Source: Stenotrophomonas sp. SAU14A_NAIMI4_5 (lineage in GTDB: Bacteria; Pseudomonadota; Gammaproteobacteria; Xanthomonadales; Xanthomonadaceae). Taken from it: a stretch of DNA of 64,000 nt. Below the pieces are notes generated by a model, which was not told where the DNA came from, ran no database searches, and saw nothing but the letters and a program-made list of their open reading frames with translations. Every line of letters starts with the position of its first letter. The stretch's first letter is position 1. A program made the position numbers and the translations under genes. Shown here one piece after another: positions 22,818 through 30,608 of the stretch. The stretch covers positions 1,260,777-1,324,776 of the forward strand of contig NZ_CP026003.1 in NCBI RefSeq assembly GCF_003086795.1. Direction: 5' to 3'.

Positions 22818-23222
22818 ATGTCCCATACCCGCGCACCCATGGAACGGCTGATCCGCGCCAACGCGGATGAAATCAACCGGCTGCAGCAGCTCATCCGCGA
22901 GACGGCCGCACTGCGCTGGCGGGGGCCCGAAGAGAAGCAGCGACATGCGGATGCGTGCGCGGAGTTCAACCAGCGCTACCCGCAGCTGGTGTTTCCCGGC
23001 GGCTACGACCATGCCCTGCAGGAGCTGGCCAGGCACGACCCAAATATCGTGGATGTGGTGCTGACCTTCCTGGAAGTGCGGCCGTACTTCTTCCGTTCCG
23101 GGTACATGTGGAAAACCCTGTACAAGCGTGTGCAGCGGGTGCCGATGGGCACGAAGCAGCAGGCCAGGATGCAGAAGATCGTGGAGGCCTACAGCGCCTA
23201 TTGTGCTGCACGTGATGCCTGA
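22818..23222 (+). CDS. hypothetical protein, flanked by repeats
   Basis: A 134-residue soluble protein, no signal. ATG 22818 follows GAGG. Rich in Arg, Glu and aromatic residues; segments such as MERLIRANADEINRLQQLI suggest an N-terminal helix and FFRSGYMWKTLYKRVQR a basic C-terminal helix. The gene is enclosed by two copies of the GGGGTC repeat (22755 and 23225). Codon use resembles the neighbours. I do not recognise the family. Confidence 0.65.
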   Translation: MSHTRAPMERLIRANADEINRLQQLIRETAALRWRGPEEKQRHADACAEFNQRYPQLVFPGGYDHALQELARHDPNIVDVVLTFLEVRPYFFRSGYMWKTLYKRVQRVPMGTKQQARMQKIVEAYSAYCAARDA

Positions 23223-23224
23223 TG

Positions 23225-23262
23225 GGGCAGATCCCTTTGCCCGGCAAAGGGATCCGACCCCG
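23225..23262. repeat. GGGGTC...GACCCC palindromic repeat, copy 2
   Basis: GGGGCAGATCCCTTTGCC / GGCAAAGGGATCCGACCCC inverted repeat, directly after the stop at 23222. It lies 15 bases before the end of the convergent membrane gene. Confidence 0.8.
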
Positions 23263-23276
23263 CGCGCCCTGGCTCA

Positions 23277-23912
23277 TCACGCCGCCCGCAGCGGCCGTGC
23301 ATGCACACTGCGCTTCAGCGATTGAGCACGCTTGGCGATGGCGCGCACCACGAAGGCGGTGAACAGCAGGGCCGAAGGTACGGCGTACCAGAAATTGGCC
23401 GGCACGCGCTTGAAGTATGAGTAGGTGAACACCGCGGCGATGATCCACATGCCGGTTACGTGCAGGCGGCGCCATGCGGTGGGGCCCATGCGCCGGGCGA
23501 TGCCGCGATGCGAGGTGATCGCCAGCGCGAGGATGGCCACGTAGCCCACCGTGCCGGGCAGGTTGGCCAGCGCCGAGCGTGCTGGCCAGAACGCCGGGTT
23601 GAGGATGCCGAACGCGGTGATCGCGATGGCATGCAGCAGGTGCGAGAACGCGAACGACAGGCCGATGATCCGGCGTTCGCGCAGCAGGAAACGGCTGGTC
23701 GGCCCCGGCAGCAGGCTGGCGAACGACGAAGCAGTGAACGCCACCAGGAACAGCAGGAACGAGGTGCGCGCGGTGACCCGGATGGCCGCGCGGCTGCCCT
23801 CGGCCACGTCGGCGTGCAGGGCGAACGCGGCCAGCGCGAAGGCGATGAGCACCACGGCAATGGCCACGAACAGGCGCCAGCCGTGCAGGAAGGAAGTGTT
23901 GGAAACAGCCAT
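23277..23912 (-). CDS. ferric-reductase-like heme membrane protein of the metallophore operon
   Basis: A 211-residue protein with about six helices and several His within them (SHLLHAIAI, TSHRGIARRM, WRRLHVTGMWI), a layout like the ferric-reductase/MsrQ transmembrane domain that binds b-heme. No cytoplasmic flavin domain is present. It starts 3 bases after the HvfC stop, so it is the last gene of the metallophore operon. Inferred role: moving electrons to or from copper or the modified peptide at the inner membrane. Confidence 0.78.
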   Translation of the reverse strand: MAVSNTSFLHGWRLFVAIAVVLIAFALAAFALHADVAEGSRAAIRVTARTSFLLFLVAFTASSFASLLPGPTSRFLLRERRIIGLSFAFSHLLHAIAITAFGILNPAFWPARSALANLPGTVGYVAILALAITSHRGIARRMGPTAWRRLHVTGMWIIAAVFTYSYFKRVPANFWYAVPSALLFTAFVVRAIAKRAQSLKRSVHARPLRAA

Positions 23913-23915
23913 CGA

Positions 23916-24698
23916 TCAAGCCTCGGAATGGAGAAGGGTAGTGCCGGCCGCTGGCCGGCAATCAGGGAAAGCGGTCAGCACAACCAGCACACCCGCCGCG
24001 CACAGTTCGCCCAGCAAGGGCGCGGCCACCACGTGCAGTGCATCCGCGGGCACGTCATGCGCCGCGGCCAGTGCCTGCAGCGCGTCATCCACACGCGCGC
24101 CGTCGTTGCCAAAGGCCGACAGCAGCGCATACGCCAGCGGTGCCAGTTCCTCGACCTGCAGCCGGTAGTCCACCAGGCGGCGCAGCAGCAGAAGCGTCGG
24201 CTCGCTGACGGCGGCATCGTCCATCGCGGCGTCCTCATGCACCGGCCACTGGTAGCCCAGTACCCGCACCAGCGGCGACAGCGCCAGCACGTCGCTGCCC
24301 GCAGGCGTGTACTGCAGCGAATGCCCTGCGTCGCGCGCTTCGATGTGCAGCGCCTGCTGGGTGCTTTCGTAGTGCGCCAGCTCCGCCGCCCAGCCGGGCA
24401 GCGCGAACGTATCCTGCGTTGCCAGCCACGCAGCGAACTCGCTGGCGATCTGCGGAAACAACGGGGTATGGCAGGGGTGATGTGCGTAGTAGTACTCGAC
24501 CAGGCTGCGCCAGCGCGCTTCGCCCAGTTGTTCCTGCAGGCGCGGCAGGCTGCCGGCCAGCAGGCTGTCCAGGCTGTCGATGCACAGGCGGCGGTACACC
24601 GCCAGCCGGCGTGCCTCGATGCCATCGGGCGCCGGCATCGACGGGTCGCGCACATGGTCGGCCCAGCGCTGCTGCAGGGTGGCCAGCGACTCAGCCAT
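23916..24698 (-). CDS. hvfC: HvfC-type partner of an MNIO (DUF2063 N-terminal domain)
   Basis: A 260-residue protein. The N-terminal DUF2063 part ([16 protein letters not shown], then [29 protein letters not shown], then [17 protein letters not shown]) is the precursor-binding domain found next to DUF692 enzymes; a C-terminal helical region follows. ATG 24698 overlaps the end of the DUF692 gene by 8 bases. In characterised oxazolin/bufferin systems this partner delivers the precursor to the iron enzyme. The last codons (residues about 247-254) lie in a GTAG-type palindrome, so the C terminus appears to be repeat-derived. Confidence 0.9.
23938..23960. repeat. GTAG palindrome inside the 3' end of hvfC
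   Basis: GTAGTGCCGGCCGCTGGCCGG, one SMAG-like unit, lies within the coding sequence of the HvfC-type gene 20 bases before its stop. The same unit occurs in both orientations at 58242-58298 and at 49049-49070. Confidence 0.7.
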
Positions 24699-25536
24699 GG
24701 GCCATCTCCGGCAGCAGCACCTCGGCCTGGGCCTGGCGGATCTGCGTGACCTCGGCCAGCAGTTCGGCCAGCGGCGGGAAGTTGAAATCGCGCTCCAGCA
24801 GGGTGGGGCGCACGCCGACACGCGCATAGGCCTCGCGCAGCAGCGCCCAGACCATGCCCTTCACCGGCGCGCCGTGGGTGTCGATCTTGAAGCCATCGTC
24901 TTCGTCGAAGTGACCGGCCACGTGCAGCGAGGCGACACGGTGGCTGGGGACGCGGGCGAGGAAACCGAAGGCGTCGTAGCCGTTGTTGCAGGCGTTGACG
25001 AAGACGTTGTTGACGTCCAGCAGCAGGTCGCAGTCTGCTTCGGCCAGCACGGCGTTGATGAAGTCGATTTCGCTCATGTCCGCGCCGGGCACGGCGTAGT
25101 AGGAGATGTTCTCCACCGCGATGCGCCGGCCCAGCGTGTCCTGCACCTGGGCGATGCGCCCGGCGACGTGGCGCACAGCTTCGGCGGTGAACGGCAGCGG
25201 CAGCAGGTCGTAGACATGGCCGCCGGCAGCGCAGTAGCTCAGGTGTTCGCTGTACAGCTGCACCTGGTGCAGCTCGAGGAAGGCGCGGGTCTGTGCCAGC
25301 AGGGTGCGGTCCAGCGGGTCCGGGCCGCCCAGCGACAGCGACAGGCCGTGGCAGGTCAGGCGGTGGCGTTCGCTGAGCTGGCGCAGCGCGGCACCATGGG
25401 CGCCACCGACGCCGATCCAGTTGTCGGGCGAGACTTCGAGGAAGTCGATGGCGTCGGCGGGCATTGCCAGCAACTCGTCAATCAGGCCACGGCGCAGGCC
25501 AAGACCAGCGCTGGCGGAAGGCAGGGGCAGGGACAT
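24691..25536 (-). CDS. hvfB: HvfB-type multinuclear non-heme iron oxidase (DUF692, MNIO)
   Basis: A 281-residue TIM-barrel enzyme of the MbnB/TglH/ChrH superfamily. Metal-site segments in family order are visible: [48 protein letters not shown] and [12 protein letters not shown]. MNIOs use two or three irons to oxidise Cys (or Asp/Asn) of a peptide. With an EGKCG-type precursor next door, the expected product is an oxazolone-thioamide, as reported for HvfBC of Haemophilus. ATG 25536 has GGAG eight bases upstream. Cytosolic; it follows the precursor gene by 54 bases. Confidence 0.93.
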
Positions 25537-25590
25537 GCGCGGTACTCCAGGGCAGTGGCGCCGCCACGAGGGCGGCGCCGTTGGGGGCAA

Positions 25591-26067
25591 TCAGTCGTTG
25601 ACGCGGGAGAACAGGCCCTTCGGCATCGGCTTGCCGTTGGCGGTGTAGACGCTGCGCAGGTAGTCGTGCGCTTCCTGCTCGCTGATGTAGCCGTCGTGGT
25701 CGGCGTCGATGCGGTCGAATTCGGCGGCACGCTTGCCGGCCACGGCGTTGAACTCGGCACGCGAGACCCGGCCGTCGTGGTCACGGTCGGTGCGGGCAAA
25801 CGAGGCGTCCCCGCACTTGCCTTCGCCGCACTGGCCTTCGGCCACCTTGGCCTTGCCGGCGGGCTTGCTGGTGGCGGCCTTGTTGGCGCCGCACTTGCCT
25901 TCACCGCACTTGCCTTCGGCGGCGGCGCTCATGGCCACGGCACTGATCGCCAGCGGCTGGATCGCGGCGGCCTGGCCAGCCAGCAGCAGGCCGCCAGCCA
26001 GGGCGATACCGATGGCGCCGATGCGCGGCAGACGGGAAGCAGCGGTGTTCTTGGTCGAGACGGACAT
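25591..26067 (-). CDS. hvfA: HvfA-type RiPP metallophore precursor fused to an EF-hand pair
   Basis: A 158-residue precursor. Residues 1-35 form a long signal peptide (as in bufferins/oxazolins), cleaved near GQAAA. Two Cys-pair modules follow: EGKCGEGKCG (51-60; Cys54, Cys59) and EGQCGEGKCG (77-86; Cys80, Cys85), the motif in which Cys is converted to a copper-binding oxazolone-thioamide. The C-terminal half carries two canonical calcium loops, DRDHDGRVSRAE (94-105) and DADHDGYISEQE (121-132). Its neighbours are HvfB, HvfC and an HvfX-like DoxX protein. Probable role: periplasmic copper buffering. The EF-hand fusion is unusual; a plain EF-hand annotation would miss the RiPP. Confidence 0.92.
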   Translation of the reverse strand: MSVSTKNTAASRLPRIGAIGIALAGGLLLAGQAAAIQPLAISAVAMSAAAEGKCGEGKCGANKAATSKPAGKAKVAEGQCGEGKCGDASFARTDRDHDGRVSRAEFNAVAGKRAAEFDRIDADHDGYISEQEAHDYLRSVYTANGKPMPKGLFSRVND

Positions 26068-26169
26068 GGTGGTGACTCCTTGGGATGTGCACGCAGGGCG
26101 TGCGGGATGGACGCCGCGGGAAGGCGACGGAATGCGATGCGGAGAAGGGTGGGAAAGGGCGGAGGCGGA

Positions 26170-26814
26170 TCAGGCGCTGCGGCGACGACGCAGCACATGG
26201 GCCAGCAGCAGGGCGCCGCCGAGCAGGGCACCGCCGAATCCAATGCCCGGCAGCAGTGCGGCAATGGGCAGCAGCAGGGCGACCAGGCTGACGCCCCAGC
26301 CGAGGCGGTCATCGCCAACTGCGGCACGCTGCGGGCCGGCCAGCAGGCGGTCCAGGCTGAGTGCGCCGCCACCGTTGAGGATCAGTGGCAGCAGCATGGC
26401 CAGGAACAGCAGCGGCAGCTTGAAGTTGCCATAGCCCTGGTCGGTGATGGCATAGCCCTGCCAGAGTTCGCCGAGGCCGTTCCACTGGTCGGGCCAGTGC
26501 ACGGCGGCGATGGCGACCACGGTCAGCACCCAGAAGATGTAGGCCACCGAACGCGTGGCGAGGCCGAGCAGCAGCATCACCGCGCCCACCAGTTCCAGCC
26601 ACGTGGCGAGCTGCCAGTTGAGCGAGGCGGGCAGGGTGGAGAAGGGGAACGAGAAGCGGCCGTCCAGATCGGCGAACCAGTTCTGGCCGCCCAGCTTCTC
26701 GCGGCCGGATTCAAAGAACTCCCAGGCCAGCAGGGCGCGCAGGGCCAGCGGCGAAAGCCAGCGGCCGACGGCATCCAGGCGCGGGGTGTAGAGGGAGGAG
26801 GCGGTGCTGATCAT
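26170..26814 (-). CDS. DoxX-family membrane protein (HvfX-like) of the metallophore operon
   Basis: A 214-residue membrane protein with four core helices of the DoxX fold plus two C-terminal helices ([18 protein letters not shown] onward) and a basic end (RRRRSA). The conserved N-terminal [19 protein letters not shown] is typical of the DoxX proteins found with MNIO precursors and named HvfX in recent annotation. It is the first gene of the operon, 102 bases before the precursor. Its role in maturation, export or copper handling is not established. Confidence 0.87.
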
Positions 26815-27156
26815 GGGTGTGTCCTGCGGGCCGGTGGTCGATGGAGGCCATTTCGGGCCACGCAGGTATCGGTAACGTGTGCCGATGCCCGGGGTTTTGT
26901 CAGCGACTGTGGCTGCGGCAGGGGTTTCGTACAGTTGGATACAAAGACGCCGCGTCGGGGCGCATCGGCGCGCTGCGCGCCCGCGTGCGGGGAACCCTGT
27001 TCCCCCGGTAGTGCCGGACCATGCCCGGCGGCCGAATGTATCGGACTGTAGGAACCGGCCGCCGGCCTACAGTCCGGTACAACTCGGCGCCGCAGCGAAA
27101 CAGCAGCGATACACCCACCGGCGGAAATGGCCACTCCCAACACCGGAGTGCCACCC
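26815..27156. other. 342-base gap between metallophore operon and alpha/beta hydrolase
   Basis: A divergent promoter region with no gene I can support. It carries a GTAG unit (GTAGTGCCGGACCATGCCCGG, 27008-27030) and a long inverted repeat (27038-27079). On the minus strand the stretch around 26931-26945 (TTTGTATCCAACTGTAC) is locally AT-richer and may hold the promoter of the metallophore operon, possibly ECF-sigma type, but I cannot match it to a defined consensus. Confidence 0.5.
27038..27079. repeat. long inverted repeat upstream of the alpha/beta hydrolase gene
   Basis: CGGACTGTAGG (27042-27052) and CCTACAGTCCG (27066-27076) are perfect 11-bp arms around a GC-rich 13-base centre (CCGG-GCC-GCCGG type). 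With one mismatch the arms extend to GTAT...GTAC (27038-27079). The end is 77 bases before the hydrolase ATG. It could be a regulator site or a repeat variant. Confidence 0.6.
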
Positions 27157-27951
27157 ATGATCCGCACCACCCTGCTTGCCGCTGCCCTGGCCCTGGCCGG
27201 CGCCGCCACCCCCGCCTTTGCCGCGCAGGCCGATGCCGGCGCGCCGCCCACCATCATCCTGGTACATGGCGCCTTCGCCGATGGCTCCAGCTGGAACAAG
27301 GTCATCAGCACCCTGCACGACTGGAAGCTGCCGGCGGTGGCCGTGCAGAACCCGCTCAGCTCGCTGGCTGACGACGTGGCGGCCACCCGCCGCGCGATTG
27401 CCGCGGCACCGGGCAAGGTGGTGCTGGTCGGCCACAGCTGGGGCGGCACGGTCATCACCGAAGCGGGCAACGATCCCAAGGTGCAGGCGCTGGTCTACGT
27501 GGCCGCGTTCGCACCGGATGTCGGCCAGTCCTCCGCGCAGCAGGGCGAAGGCTTCCCGGTCGGCCCCGGGCTGACCCGCCTGCAGGAGAAGGACGGCTAC
27601 CTGACCCTGCCGGCCGATGCCATCGCCGAGGATTTCGCACCCGACGTGATGAAGAAGACCGCCGCCCTGCTGTACAGCACGCAGGTGCCGTTGAAAGCCA
27701 GCGCACTGGGCGAGGCCGTGACCACGGCGGCGTGGCGCAGCAAGCCGAGCTGGTACGTGGTCAGCCGCGATGACCGCATGCTCTCGCCGCAGCTGCAGGT
27801 CGCCACCGCACGGCGCATCGGCGCGCAGCTGCAGTCGATCGGCAGCAGCCATGTAGCGCTGCTCTCGCACCCGGCGCAGGTGGCCGACAGCATCCTGGAA
27901 GCTGCCGGGGTGAAGCCGGCCGAGCTGCCGCTGGCCGAGCAGGGGGGCTGA
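27157..27951 (+). CDS. secreted alpha/beta hydrolase
   Basis: A 264-residue protein with a Sec signal (MIRTTLLAAALALAGAATPAFA). The alpha/beta-hydrolase core shows the oxyanion motif VHGAFADGSSW, nucleophile elbow GHSWGG (Ser94), and a late SSHVALLSHP that supplies the catalytic His; this resembles EstC/hydroxynitrile-lyase-like esterases widespread as secreted AB hydrolases. ATG 27157 has GGAG nine bases upstream. Substrate unknown. It is followed after 3 bases by a thioredoxin-like gene, so the two are co-transcribed. Confidence 0.9.
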   Translation: MIRTTLLAAALALAGAATPAFAAQADAGAPPTIILVHGAFADGSSWNKVISTLHDWKLPAVAVQNPLSSLADDVAATRRAIAAAPGKVVLVGHSWGGTVITEAGNDPKVQALVYVAAFAPDVGQSSAQQGEGFPVGPGLTRLQEKDGYLTLPADAIAEDFAPDVMKKTAALLYSTQVPLKASALGEAVTTAAWRSKPSWYVVSRDDRMLSPQLQVATARRIGAQLQSIGSSHVALLSHPAQVADSILEAAGVKPAELPLAEQGG

Positions 27952-27954
27952 GCG

Positions 27955-28500
27955 ATGGCCACGCTTCGTGCCTACACCGTGCCGCTGCTGCTGGCCCTGC
28001 TCGGCGCCGCTGCGCTGCTGCTGGCCTGGCCCAGCCCCGAAGCCGGTGCACAGACCGCCGAGGCCGCACCCGCGGCGGGATTCAGCGGCGGTGGGCCGTG
28101 GCACAACAGCCCGCCGCTGACCCTGGAGCAGCTGCGCGGGCAGGTGGTGCTGGTCGAGTTCTGGACCTACGGCTGCAGCAACTGCCTCAACGTCGCGCCG
28201 TACGTGCACCAGTGGCATGCGCGTTATGCGCCGAAGGGGCTGCGCGTGATCGGCGTGCACACGCCGGAATTCGCCTATGAAGGCCTGCAGGGCAACGTGC
28301 GCCATGCGATCCGCCGCCTCGACATCACTTGGCCGGTGGTGCAGGACAACCAGTACCGCATCTGGAACGCGTGGGGCAATCGATTCTGGCCGGCGCTGTA
28401 CCTGGTCGACCGCCAGGGCCGGGTGGTCTACCGCCATTACGGCGAAGGCGATTACGCACGTACCGAAAGCGAGATCCAGCGCCTGCTGGCCAGCCCCTGA
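27955..28500 (+). CDS. membrane-anchored thioredoxin-like (redoxin) protein
   Basis: A 181-residue protein with one N-terminal helix (YTVPLLLALLGAAALLLAW) and a periplasmic thioredoxin fold. The active-site pair is CSNC (Cys74, Cys77) within VEFWTYGCSNCLN, very like the C-terminal domain of DipZ/CcdA-fused thioredoxins, and the cis-Pro is in FWPALYLVD. Probable thiol-disulfide exchange outside the membrane, perhaps keeping a secreted thiol enzyme reduced. Co-transcribed with the hydrolase upstream and 57 bases before the two-component genes. Confidence 0.87.
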   Translation: MATLRAYTVPLLLALLGAAALLLAWPSPEAGAQTAEAAPAAGFSGGGPWHNSPPLTLEQLRGQVVLVEFWTYGCSNCLNVAPYVHQWHARYAPKGLRVIGVHTPEFAYEGLQGNVRHAIRRLDITWPVVQDNQYRIWNAWGNRFWPALYLVDRQGRVVYRHYGEGDYARTESEIQRLLASP

Positions 28501-28557
28501 GCCGCGCTACCATGGCCGCGCCGCGCGGCCTTGTCCTCCGCCGCCATCGAGAACGCA

Positions 28558-29298
28558 ATGAACCACGTACCGCACATCCTTGTCGTCGACGATGACAGCG
28601 ACATCCGCCAGATGCTGGCCGACTACCTGCAGCGCAACGGCCTGCGCATCAGCCAGGCCGATGGTGGCCGCGCCATGCGTGCGCTGATGGACACCCATGC
28701 GGTGGACCTGGTGGTGCTGGACGTGATGATGCCGGGCGAGGATGGCCTGAGCCTGTGCCGCAATCTGCGGGCCGGCAAGCACCGCGCCGTGCCGGTGGTG
28801 CTGCTGACCGCCCGCGATGATGAGACCGACCGCATCATCGGCCTGGAAATGGGCGCCGATGATTACGTGACCAAACCCTTCTCCTCGCGCGAACTGCTGG
28901 CGCGCATCAATGCGGTGATCCGCCGCACGCAGATGCTGCCGCCGAACCTGCAGGTGAGCGAAGCCGGTCGCCAGCTGGCCTTCGGCGAATGGCGCCTGGA
29001 TACCACCGCCCGCCACCTGCTGGATGCGCAGGACACCGCCTATCCGCTCAGCGGCGCCGAGTTCCGGTTGCTGCGCGTGTTCCTCGACCATGCCAACCGC
29101 GTGCTCAGCCGCGACCAGCTGCTCAGCCTCACCCAGGGCCGCGATGCCGAACTGTTCGACCGCTCCATCGACCTGCTGGTCAGCCGCGTGCGCCAGCGCC
29201 TGGGCGACGACGCGCGCGAGCCGACCTACATCAAGACCGTGCGCAGCGAAGGCTATGTGTTCAGCGTGCCGGTGCAGCTGCTGGGGCCGGAGGAATGA
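28558..29298 (+). CDS. OmpR-family response regulator
   Basis: A 246-residue regulator. The receiver domain (residues 1-125) has the acidic pocket DDD (11-13), phosphoacceptor Asp55 (VVLDVMMPGEDGL) and Lys in DDYVTKPF. A winged-helix DNA-binding domain follows (LSGAEFRLLRVFLDHANRVLSR, ending IKTVRSEGYVFSVPV). ATG 28558 overlies no good ribosome site, but homology starts there. Its stop overlaps the kinase start (ATGA), so the pair is translationally coupled. Target genes are unknown. Confidence 0.95.
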   Translation: MNHVPHILVVDDDSDIRQMLADYLQRNGLRISQADGGRAMRALMDTHAVDLVVLDVMMPGEDGLSLCRNLRAGKHRAVPVVLLTARDDETDRIIGLEMGADDYVTKPFSSRELLARINAVIRRTQMLPPNLQVSEAGRQLAFGEWRLDTTARHLLDAQDTAYPLSGAEFRLLRVFLDHANRVLSRDQLLSLTQGRDAELFDRSIDLLVSRVRQRLGDDAREPTYIKTVRSEGYVFSVPVQLLGPEE

Positions 29299-30608
29299 AC
29301 GCCGCCGCGCGCCGCCTGCCGTGGCCGCGCACGTTGTCCGCGCGCCTGCTGCTGTTGCTGCTGGGCGGGCTGACCCTGGCCCACGCGCTGTCGTTCGGCC
29401 TGCTGTTCTTCGAGCGCTACCAGGCCACGCGCAGCATGATGCTGCGCAACCTGGACGAGGACGTGGCGGTTAGCGTGGCCCTGCTGGAACACCTGCCGGC
29501 CGACCAGCGCCAGGCCTGGGTGCCGCGCCTGGAACGGCGCACCTACCGCTATCTGCTGCGCCCGGCCGCTGCAGGGCCGGCGCTGGAAACCGAGCGTGCA
29601 CGGCAGGTCACCGCCATCATCGATGACAGCCTGGAGCATCGTTACCCGCTGCAGGCCCGCCAGGTCGCGCGCCTGCCCGAACGTTTCGAGGTGGAACTGC
29701 GGCTGCACGATGGCACGCCGTTGACCATCGAAGTAACGCCGTCCGGCCTGCCGCTGGCGCGCTGGCTGCCAGCCGTGCTGCTGGCGCAGCTGGCCCTGCT
29801 GCTGCTGTGCGCGTGGCTGGCGGTACGGCTGGCGCTGCGGCCTTTGCAGCAGCTGTCGCACGCCGTCGAGCACCTGCAGCCGGGCAAGGACGCACCGATG
29901 CTGGCCGAAGATGGCCCCGCCGAAGTCGGTACGGCGGCCGCCGCATTGAATGCGCTGCAGGCGCGCATCCGTGGCCATGTCAGCGAGCGCCTGCAGATTC
30001 TCGCGGCGATCTCGCACGACCTGCAGACGCCGATCACGCGGATGAAGCTGCGGGTGGAAACGCTGCCCGAAGACGCGACCCAGCAGCGCCTGCTGGATGA
30101 CCTGGACCACCTCGGCCAGCTGGTGCGCGAGGGCGTGGCCTATGCACGCAGCAGCCACGTGGCCAGTGGTGCGCCGGTGGCAATGGATCTTGGCGCATTC
30201 CTGGCCAGCGTGGTCGGTGATTACGAGGACATGGGCAAGCCGGTCTCGGGCGGTGCACCGTCGGGGCTGACGGTGCAGACCTGGCCGCAGCCGCTGCGGC
30301 GGGTGGTCGGCAACCTGGTGGACAACGCGCTGCGCTATGCCGGCAGTGCCGAGATCGATGCGGGTCGCGATGCGGCCGGCAAGCCGTGGATCAGCGTGTC
30401 TGATCGCGGCCCGGGCATTCCCGAGGACCAGCTGCAGGCCGTGCTGGCCCCGTTCCACCGGCTGGAGAGCTCGCGCAACCGTGATACCGGCGGCACCGGG
30501 CTGGGCCTGGCCATCGCCGTGCAGCTGGCGCAGTCGCTGGGCGGTTCGCTGCAGCTGCGCAACCGCGAAGGCGGTGGCCTGCAGGCGGTGCTGCAGCTGC
30601 CGGGCTGA
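29295..30608 (+). CDS. sensor histidine kinase
   Basis: A 437-residue membrane kinase. Two helices (near residues 15-40 and 155-175) enclose a ~115-residue periplasmic sensor region without a recognised domain. HAMP, then DHp with His241 in SHDLQTPITRMKLR, then the ATP-binding domain with NLVDNALRYA (N box), SDRGPGIPEDQL (G1) and GTGLGLAIAVQLA (G2) follow. EnvZ/RstB-like architecture. Partner of the overlapping response regulator. Signal not readable from sequence. Confidence 0.95.
   Translation: MNAAARRLPWPRTLSARLLLLLLGGLTLAHALSFGLLFFERYQATRSMMLRNLDEDVAVSVALLEHLPADQRQAWVPRLERRTYRYLLRPAAAGPALETERARQVTAIIDDSLEHRYPLQARQVARLPERFEVELRLHDGTPLTIEVTPSGLPLARWLPAVLLAQLALLLLCAWLAVRLALRPLQQLSHAVEHLQPGKDAPMLAEDGPAEVGTAAAALNALQARIRGHVSERLQILAAISHDLQTPITRMKLRVETLPEDATQQRLLDDLDHLGQLVREGVAYARSSHVASGAPVAMDLGAFLASVVGDYEDMGKPVSGGAPSGLTVQTWPQPLRRVVGNLVDNALRYAGSAEIDAGRDAAGKPWISVSDRGPGIPEDQLQAVLAPFHRLESSRNRDTGGTGLGLAIAVQLAQSLGGSLQLRNREGGGLQAVLQLPG

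Follow-up and report, generated by a model that had tools for sequence, protein, structure and literature searches.

An EF-hand-fused EGKCG precursor in an HvfB/HvfC-type operon of Stenotrophomonas: a putative counterpart of the BfmRS-EfhP set of Pseudomonas aeruginosa

Why should the precursor of a peptide-modifying operon carry a calcium-type domain, and which metal would such an operon handle? The question is raised by a locus of Stenotrophomonas sp. SAU14A_NAIMI4_5, lying in a 64,000-nt stretch of contig NZ_CP026003.1 (positions 1,260,777 to 1,324,776, hereafter the window), where five genes on the minus strand (nt 23277–26814 of the window) form one operon around an MNIO (DUF692) enzyme and the precursor of a ribosomally synthesised and post-translationally modified peptide (RiPP) fused to two EF-hands. 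A preliminary description of the locus had filed it as a metallophore operon of the MNIO/HvfB-HvfC kind, rightly so according to the curated models, and had stated that no characterised member with a calcium-type domain was known. The latter has to be withdrawn. Judging from its sequence, the operon belongs to an already known EGKCG/EF-hand class (PMC12452194), with a characterised relative in EfhP (PA4107) of P. aeruginosa, which is homologous to the window precursor and whose Ca2+ binding has been measured (PMC9132961). We lean slightly towards the reading that the operon is the Stenotrophomonas form of a BfmRS-EfhP set, encoding a predicted periplasmic copper-binding protein with a calcium-folded domain; gene content, homology, the joint retention of Cys motifs and EF-hands, their spacing, the orthology of a neighbouring regulator and the presence of its putative sites all lend support to it.

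All five genes were found at the coordinates given in the preliminary description, with models above cut-off. In the order of transcription, they encode a membrane protein of the DoxX/HvfX family (nt 26814–26170; PF07681, 66.8 bits; NF050144, 130.8 bits against a cut-off of 80), the 158-aa precursor (nt 26067–25591), an HvfB-family MNIO (nt 25536–24691; NF003818, 408.4 bits against a cut-off of 360; PF05114, 338.6 bits; PDB entry 3bww, E 2.3e-71), an HvfC-family partner with a RiPP recognition element (RRE) and the domains DUF2063 and NGO1945_C (nt 24698–23916; NF050145, 195.6 bits against a cut-off of 142; PF09836; PDB entry 3dee, E 0.0018) and a ferric-reductase-like haem membrane protein (nt 23912–23277; PF01794, 36.8 bits against a cut-off of 28). 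The precursor is thereby adjoined by both an MNIO and its PME-type 1/RRE partner, each over the cut-off of its own model (NF003818 and NF050145). As read from the sequence, the likeliest start of HvfB is the ATG at nt 25536 and that of HvfC lies at nt 24698; the hvfC start overlaps the hvfB stop by 8 nt and only 3 nt separate hvfC from the ferric-reductase-like gene, which is the pattern expected of one transcription unit. A terminator scan returned one terminator-like site, against a mean of 1.6 in shuffled sequences. A defence function was considered and rejected, as neither the precursor nor the MNIO had a PADLOC match.

The precursor combines the features of an HvfA-type peptide with those of EfhP. 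It matches NF050137 (KCGExKCG_twice; 36.2 bits, cut-off 19.5) and, in two stretches, the Pfam EF-hand_5 model PF13202 (37.2 bits, cut-off 25.9), while falling below the cut-off of the full-length HvfA equivalog NF050188 (30.1 vs 95 bits). A Sec signal peptide region (residues 1–35; nt 25963–26067), judged by eye as regards both its presence and its cleavage site, is followed by four EGKCG-type motifs arranged in two pairs, namely EGKCG-EGKCG at residues 51–60 (Cys54 and Cys59; nt 25888–25917, also supported by the alignment) and EGQCG-EGKCG at residues 77–86 (Cys80 and Cys85; nt 25810–25839), so that the third motif is the only one with Gln. C-terminal to this domain, as in the EfhP subclass, lie EF-hand loop 1 (DRDHDGRVSRAE, residues 94–105; nt 25753–25788), read from the sequence in a protein of which EF-hand_5 and EF-hand_1 each match two stretches, and loop 2 (DADHDGYISEQE, residues 121–132; nt 25672–25707), where the best stretch of PF13202 and PF00036 runs from residue 117 to 132 and 139, respectively. 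The four Cys and the two loops had been predicted exactly to the residue. The Ca-loop ligands are intact in the window precursor, Ca binding itself having been measured only for EfhP. Identity of the EF part with the effector XopAW (30.3 bits, cut-off 120) or with lanmodulin (20.3 bits, cut-off 135) was rejected; the precursor had weak PDB matches with an EF-hand protein and with lanmodulin (E 0.0006–0.0008). The AlphaFold model, with a mean pLDDT of 57.6, is usable only for residues 101–150 (block pLDDT of 77–84), and Foldseek retrieved no match at E ≤ 0.001, the best matches being EF-hand pairs; with a poor model and weak matches, the structure supports no claim beyond that of an EF-hand pair.

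Seven matches named P. aeruginosa were 57–63% identical to the window precursor over 89–98% of its length. EfhP, for which a SignalP call of a signal peptide is quoted in PMC9132961, binds Ca2+ (13.7 µM) with Ca-dependent changes of hydrophobicity and shifts in nuclear magnetic resonance (NMR) (PMC9132961), and its gene is operonic with DUF692 and DUF2063 genes, which also accompany efhP in P. putida strains, KT2440 among them (PMC4053335). The promoter of efhP is responsive to both Ca and Fe, deletion of the gene hinders Ca regulation, including that of iron uptake, and the authors, who count four EGKCG repeats in the protein, propose Fe sensing by them (PMC11559002). Precursors of the second EGKCG type, with two EF-hands fused C-terminally, were described by Leprevost et al. 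2025 (PMC12452194), where few EGKCG clusters are said to have ferric reductase genes and where Ca homeostasis or signalling is suggested for the EF-hand type, "as exemplified by EfhP". As for the chemistry, the oxazolone-thioamide product assumed in the preliminary description is outdated, the modification of HvfA and related products being now assigned as 5-thiooxazole, with 8 Da lost for two repeats (PMC12668002; PMC13419390). According to PMC12668002, all characterised MNIO-PME1 clusters install 5-thiooxazole and their products generally bind Cu; for EGKCG products of other species, both the chemistry and Cu binding are reported there. Our search found no literature joining DUF692, copper and Stenotrophomonas.

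Are the Cys motifs and the EF-hands kept together? Two sets of relatives were compared, both of which favour relatives keeping the system. The family set was anchored on MNIO genes: a related MNIO was found at E ≤ 1e-40 in 153 of 198 family genomes, and 121 loci were retained, consisting of the window and of 120 of the 149 other matches listed, taken in rank order (left out were two loci near contig ends, G023:C213 and G041:C353, the 27 lowest listed matches and the unlisted ones). Flanks were about 4.5 kb, and a DoxX, reductase or regulator gene is called absent when absent within that stretch. The named set consisted of the best 80 of 225 relatives, retrieved with EF-domain patterns that take in DASFxxTD, the stretch separating loop 1 from the last Cys. 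A regular expression served to call EF loops; in the 43 family precursors without them, the first 260 residues were read, one precursor being incomplete.

A precursor open reading frame with at least two GxCG motifs was found just upstream of the MNIO in 121/121 family loci, which, together with the proportion of genomes having a related MNIO, places the operon far beyond chance. EF loops were present in 78 of these 121 precursors (two loops in 74, one in 4). At least two GxCG motifs were kept in 78/78 EF-hand precursors of the family set and in 80/80 named relatives, and hence the homologue that loses the Cys while keeping the EF-hands, named in the preliminary description as a finding that would refute it, did not occur in either set (0/78 and 0/80), although such homologues may exist outside these sets. 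The MNIO adjoins 64 of the 80 named EF-hand relatives. Conservation of the loop positions was also tabulated over 145 domains (13 of 158 dropped as duplicates), with D121, G126 and E132 in 145/145 and D94, G99 and E105 in 141; as the sequences had been chosen by the EF-loop expression, these figures are partly circular and were not used as evidence.

Several single loci deserve to be recorded here. A second MNIO of the same genome (nt 1582019–1582867; locus L101), 63% identical to that of the window, stands with an EGKCG precursor without EF-hands, an HvfC gene and a downstream DoxX gene, and offers a natural control within one genome for a precursor lacking the calcium-type domain. The L147 precursor, also of EGKCG type and without EF-hands, has a long stretch rich in His and Asp, which might be another kind of metal-binding addition. 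Nine EfhP-like genes of Pseudomonas, several of which come from P. fluorescens isolates, were found without an adjoining MNIO (L228–L230, L232, L234–L236, L238 and L239): 8/9 encode a single EGKCG pair, 0/9 have a BfmR-type site, and an MNIO occurs elsewhere in each genome. A LxxGY-like motif soon after the signal peptide, absent from the window precursor, was seen in 105/121 family precursors, with and without EF-hands alike, and could be a recognition element for HvfB/HvfC.

The distance between the Cys and the calcium loops is also retained. Of the 18 family-set precursors with the C-terminal layout, 15 place their last Cys 9 residues ahead of the first Ca ligand, as the window precursor does with Cys85; of the remaining three, one reads 6 and two read 36, the latter because the expression missed loop 1 (9 plus 27, the usual distance from one loop to the other). 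In these precursors, a variable linker of 15–26 residues joins the final two Cys pairs. A spacing of 9 was likewise found in 79/80 named loci, where it is partly built in: the search patterns span DASFxxTD, and all named loci thus have the C-terminal layout, making the family set the fairer test. Shared ancestry accounts for part of this constancy. Most EF precursors of the family set (60/78; loci L037–L152, e.g., L065 and L045) show instead an internal layout, with GxCG repeats both before and after the EF pair, which was not found in the parts of PMC12452194 examined, where only the C-terminal layout appears; in 51 of these 60, the last Cys precedes loop 1 by 6 residues. On a quick MNIO tree of 179 rows (6 of 185 dropped as identical; 70 of 176 inner branches weak), 4 changes account for the C-terminal class, against a mean of 58.2 after shuffling, and the presence or absence of EF-hands needs 11, of which 6 are forced by well-supported branches, indicating that the EF module was gained or lost repeatedly.

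Which regulator might govern the operon? On the plus strand, divergent from doxX, a response regulator of the OmpR type (nt 28558–29298) is followed by a sensor histidine kinase (nt 29295–30608; PF02518, PF00512 and PF00672), which shares 54–55% identity with its counterparts at three syntenic Pseudomonas loci. The regulator and that of the syntenic cluster of P. monteilii are reciprocal best matches with 74% identity, the next best being at 49% and 56%. Moreover, a Pseudomonas genome encoding an EfhP with 95% identity to one from P. aeruginosa has the genes for EfhP, MNIO, HvfC, DoxX, ferric reductase, kinase and regulator in one cluster, whose content agrees with the PMC4918941 annotation of PA4107 to PA4101 (PA4101/4102, BfmRS; PA4103, ferric reductase; PA4104, DoxX; PA4105, DUF2063; PA4106, DUF692) and thus supports the BfmRS identity by synteny. 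On these grounds the two neighbours are orthologues of BfmRS; the name BfmR rests on synteny and the reciprocal best match, and is absent among the 120 regulator homologue matches listed. While the preliminary description covered the operon itself correctly, it stopped at its edge and reported neither this system nor its putative sites.

In P. aeruginosa, direct binding of BfmR to these operons and their strong activation are reported: the three strongest BfmR peaks in chromatin immunoprecipitation fall in the promoters of the efhP operon, of the PA4103-PA4104 reductase/DoxX operon and of bfmRS, and no gene is activated more strongly by BfmR than efhP, at 11,268-fold (PMC8025907). With the consensus given there (TACAA-N3-GATACA), two matches with one mismatch each were found in the window, TACAGTTGGATACA (nt 26930–26943, plus strand), about 115 nt upstream of doxX, and TACAGTCCGATACA (nt 27037–27050, minus strand), upstream of the divergent operon; both are in the gap between doxX and the hydrolase gene that opens that operon, and they are the only ones in the 64 kb, where shuffling gives an expectation of 0.10 and reached two sites in 1/100 shuffles. 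Allowing two mismatches, the window had 4 matches against 1.64 expected. In the 4.57-Mb genome, exact TACAGNNNGATACA occurs at these two positions only and, with one mismatch, has 12 matches against 7 for the backward control. Among the named loci, 67/80 have a BfmR-type site somewhere in the fetched stretch (0/80 in reversed controls). In the family set, when doxX lies upstream of an EF precursor, the regulator is found in 16/18 loci and the site in 14/18, compared with 0 and 4, respectively, in the other 103 loci (reversed control, 1/121). The BfmRS-type system is therefore a likely candidate for the switch of the EfhP-type operon. A link between BfmRS and an MNIO metallophore was not found in the literature searched: PMC4918941 depicts the DUF 692 gene beside bfmRS without a metallophore reading, and BfmR is absent from PMC12452194.

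Between the doxX promoter and the regulator gene, Stenotrophomonas and several relatives have two further genes, which in the window encode an alpha/beta hydrolase with a signal-peptide-like start (nt 27157–27951, plus strand; PF12697, 75.0 bits), first in the divergent operon, and a ResA/TlpA-like thiol redoxin (nt 27955–28500, plus strand; PF08534, 48.9 bits).

The ferric-reductase-like protein is the sole PF01794 match of the genome, with His91, His94 and His151 invariant in 43/43 aligned relatives. An MsrQ identity was rejected (MsrQ model, 34.5 bits against a cut-off of 130), and no match with PF00174, the MsrP family, was found in the genome, which together argue that the protein is not a usual MsrQ. 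Its gene was present in 11/78 EF loci and 0/43 non-EF loci of the family set (Fisher p = 0.0075, uncorrected for relatedness).

Taken together, these data are consistent with a mechanism in which a BfmRS-type two-component system would activate doxX, efhP, hvfB, hvfC and the ferric reductase gene as one operon. Acting on the EGKCG/EGQCG pairs, HvfB and HvfC would oxidise all four Cys to 5-thiooxazoles, with a predicted loss of 16 Da, the Sec system would export the product, and the C-terminal EF-hand pair would fold on Ca2+. The thiooxazoles could then serve as a periplasmic buffer for Cu(I)/Cu(II), and, the last Cys pair being at a fixed distance of 9 residues from Ca loop 1, Ca loading would probably shape or present the last copper site. 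DoxX and the haem reductase may act as membrane partners, most simply for electron supply (Cu(II) to Cu(I), or thiol/oxidant control).

Other explanations have to be weighed against this mechanism, the nearest of which, possible although we regard it as rather doubtful, is that the EF-hand pair is a mere folding or stability domain of an ordinary oxazolin/captophorin, where, in the periplasm, Ca is always bound and carries no information. The 11 changes on the MNIO tree mark the domain as optional, the second MNIO locus of the same genome does without it, and four family members have one recognisable loop only; on the other hand, both loops in 74/78 EF precursors and a fixed Cys-loop spacing seem beyond the needs of ballast. 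The protein may instead be first a calcium, and perhaps also an iron, sensor of the EfhP kind: on binding Ca, its EF-hands would alter in conformation and pass the signal on to a partner, and the Cys repeats, modified or not, would bind or sense iron. The measured Ca2+ binding of EfhP, with its hydrophobicity and NMR changes (PMC9132961), and the Ca- and Fe-dependent phenotypes of efhP (PMC11559002) speak for such a sensor, which we nevertheless find unlikely as the first role, given that the characterised MNIO-PME1 clusters all make a generally Cu-binding 5-thiooxazole (PMC12668002). Furthermore, the Ca biochemistry was done on signal-less EfhP from E. coli and PA4105 and PA4106 are unmentioned in PMC9132961, suggesting that the protein was probably unmodified. 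Finally, the main job of the locus could be envelope redox or oxidative-stress control by DoxX, the haem reductase and the redoxin, with the peptide as an accessory. DoxX is indeed present in 31 of the 32 named loci that have the reductase, and the redoxin gene lies beside the regulator; in the EF loci of the family set, however, the reductase is found in 11/78 and DoxX in 20/78, within the fetched stretches, whereas precursor, MNIO and HvfC are in all, and we judge this explanation quite improbable.

The reading of the operon as a BfmRS-EfhP set for copper has, in turn, a number of points to contend with. The P. aeruginosa data indicate Ca and Fe rather than Cu (PMC11559002), the word copper is absent from PMC9132961, no experiment on Cys modification or Cu binding of any EF-hand member was found, and periplasmic Ca may always saturate a site of 13.7 µM, leaving it no sensing role. 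The Cys part of the precursor model is of low confidence, as is the model outside the EF part. Regarding control, the promoter scan found no sigma-70 promoter, the response regulator is below the cut-off of the NCBIfam heavy-metal regulator model (133.9 vs 279.2 bits), and the genes scanned (nt 22818–30608) included none recognisable as a copper-specific regulator. Both window sites have G instead of A at position 5 of the BfmR consensus, 13/80 named loci have no site, and the close Pseudomonas cluster, with the 95% identical EfhP (L290), has a site before the reductase gene and none, at one mismatch, before efhP. Lastly, 16/80 named relatives have no neighbouring MNIO. Ten of these 16 lack a BfmR-type site, and in another the only site is some 4.4 kb distant; an MNIO is present elsewhere in the genome for 16/16, and nine of them have only two GxCG motifs.

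To the known class, the present analysis adds a connection of EfhP with MNIO chemistry and BfmRS, a fixed Cys-loop spacing and an internal layout. EfhP has been studied as a calcium sensor and tied to iron uptake and virulence, and its Cys repeats, where an EfhP paper mentions them, are termed uncharacterised; counting it among the MNIO products implies that its published Ca affinity was probably obtained with unmodified protein. The regulator orthologue and its conserved sites offer a candidate control circuit for these metallophores, and the spacing renders a Ca-Cu coupling testable. More speculatively, and only as a tentative proposal, the last EGKCG pair and EF loop 1 might make up one rigid two-metal unit, so that Cu binding to a thiooxazole protein is gated by Ca2+. 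EfhP, which has so far been examined as a Ca sensor and probably unmodified, would then belong to such proteins, with BfmRS as the regulator dedicated to it in Pseudomonas as well as in Stenotrophomonas.

Compared with known systems, the ferric-reductase-like protein resembles MsrPQ in belonging to the Ferric_reduct family with invariant His and differs in scoring far below the MsrQ cut-off in a genome with no MsrP-family match. The HvfA-type domain, HvfB, HvfC and HvfX models shared with the window link the operon to the oxazolin system HvfA-HvfBCX of Haemophilus influenzae and to the captophorins (FonA), whose precursors carry EGKCG repeats; neither PMC12668002 nor PMC13419390 contains the words EF-hand or calcium. 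The EF-hand class of PMC12452194 shares with the operon a short EGKCG domain, two C-terminal EF-hands and MNIO, DUF2063 and DoxX genes. A close likeness is also seen with EfhP and the PA4101-PA4107 cluster, which has the same precursor architecture and the same MNIO, HvfC, DoxX, ferric reductase and BfmRS neighbours; control by BfmR is reported for P. aeruginosa, and the window has BfmR-type sites. The two differ in arrangement, since in the window the hydrolase and redoxin genes precede the regulator and since P. aeruginosa, with 14 named loci, has the reductase-doxX pair convergent with efhP-mnio-hvfC, whereas the window and 17 named loci (12 Stenotrophomonas-type, 3 Lysobacter, one Pseudomonas and one Bordetella) have a single array, all on the same strand, that opens with doxX and closes with the reductase.

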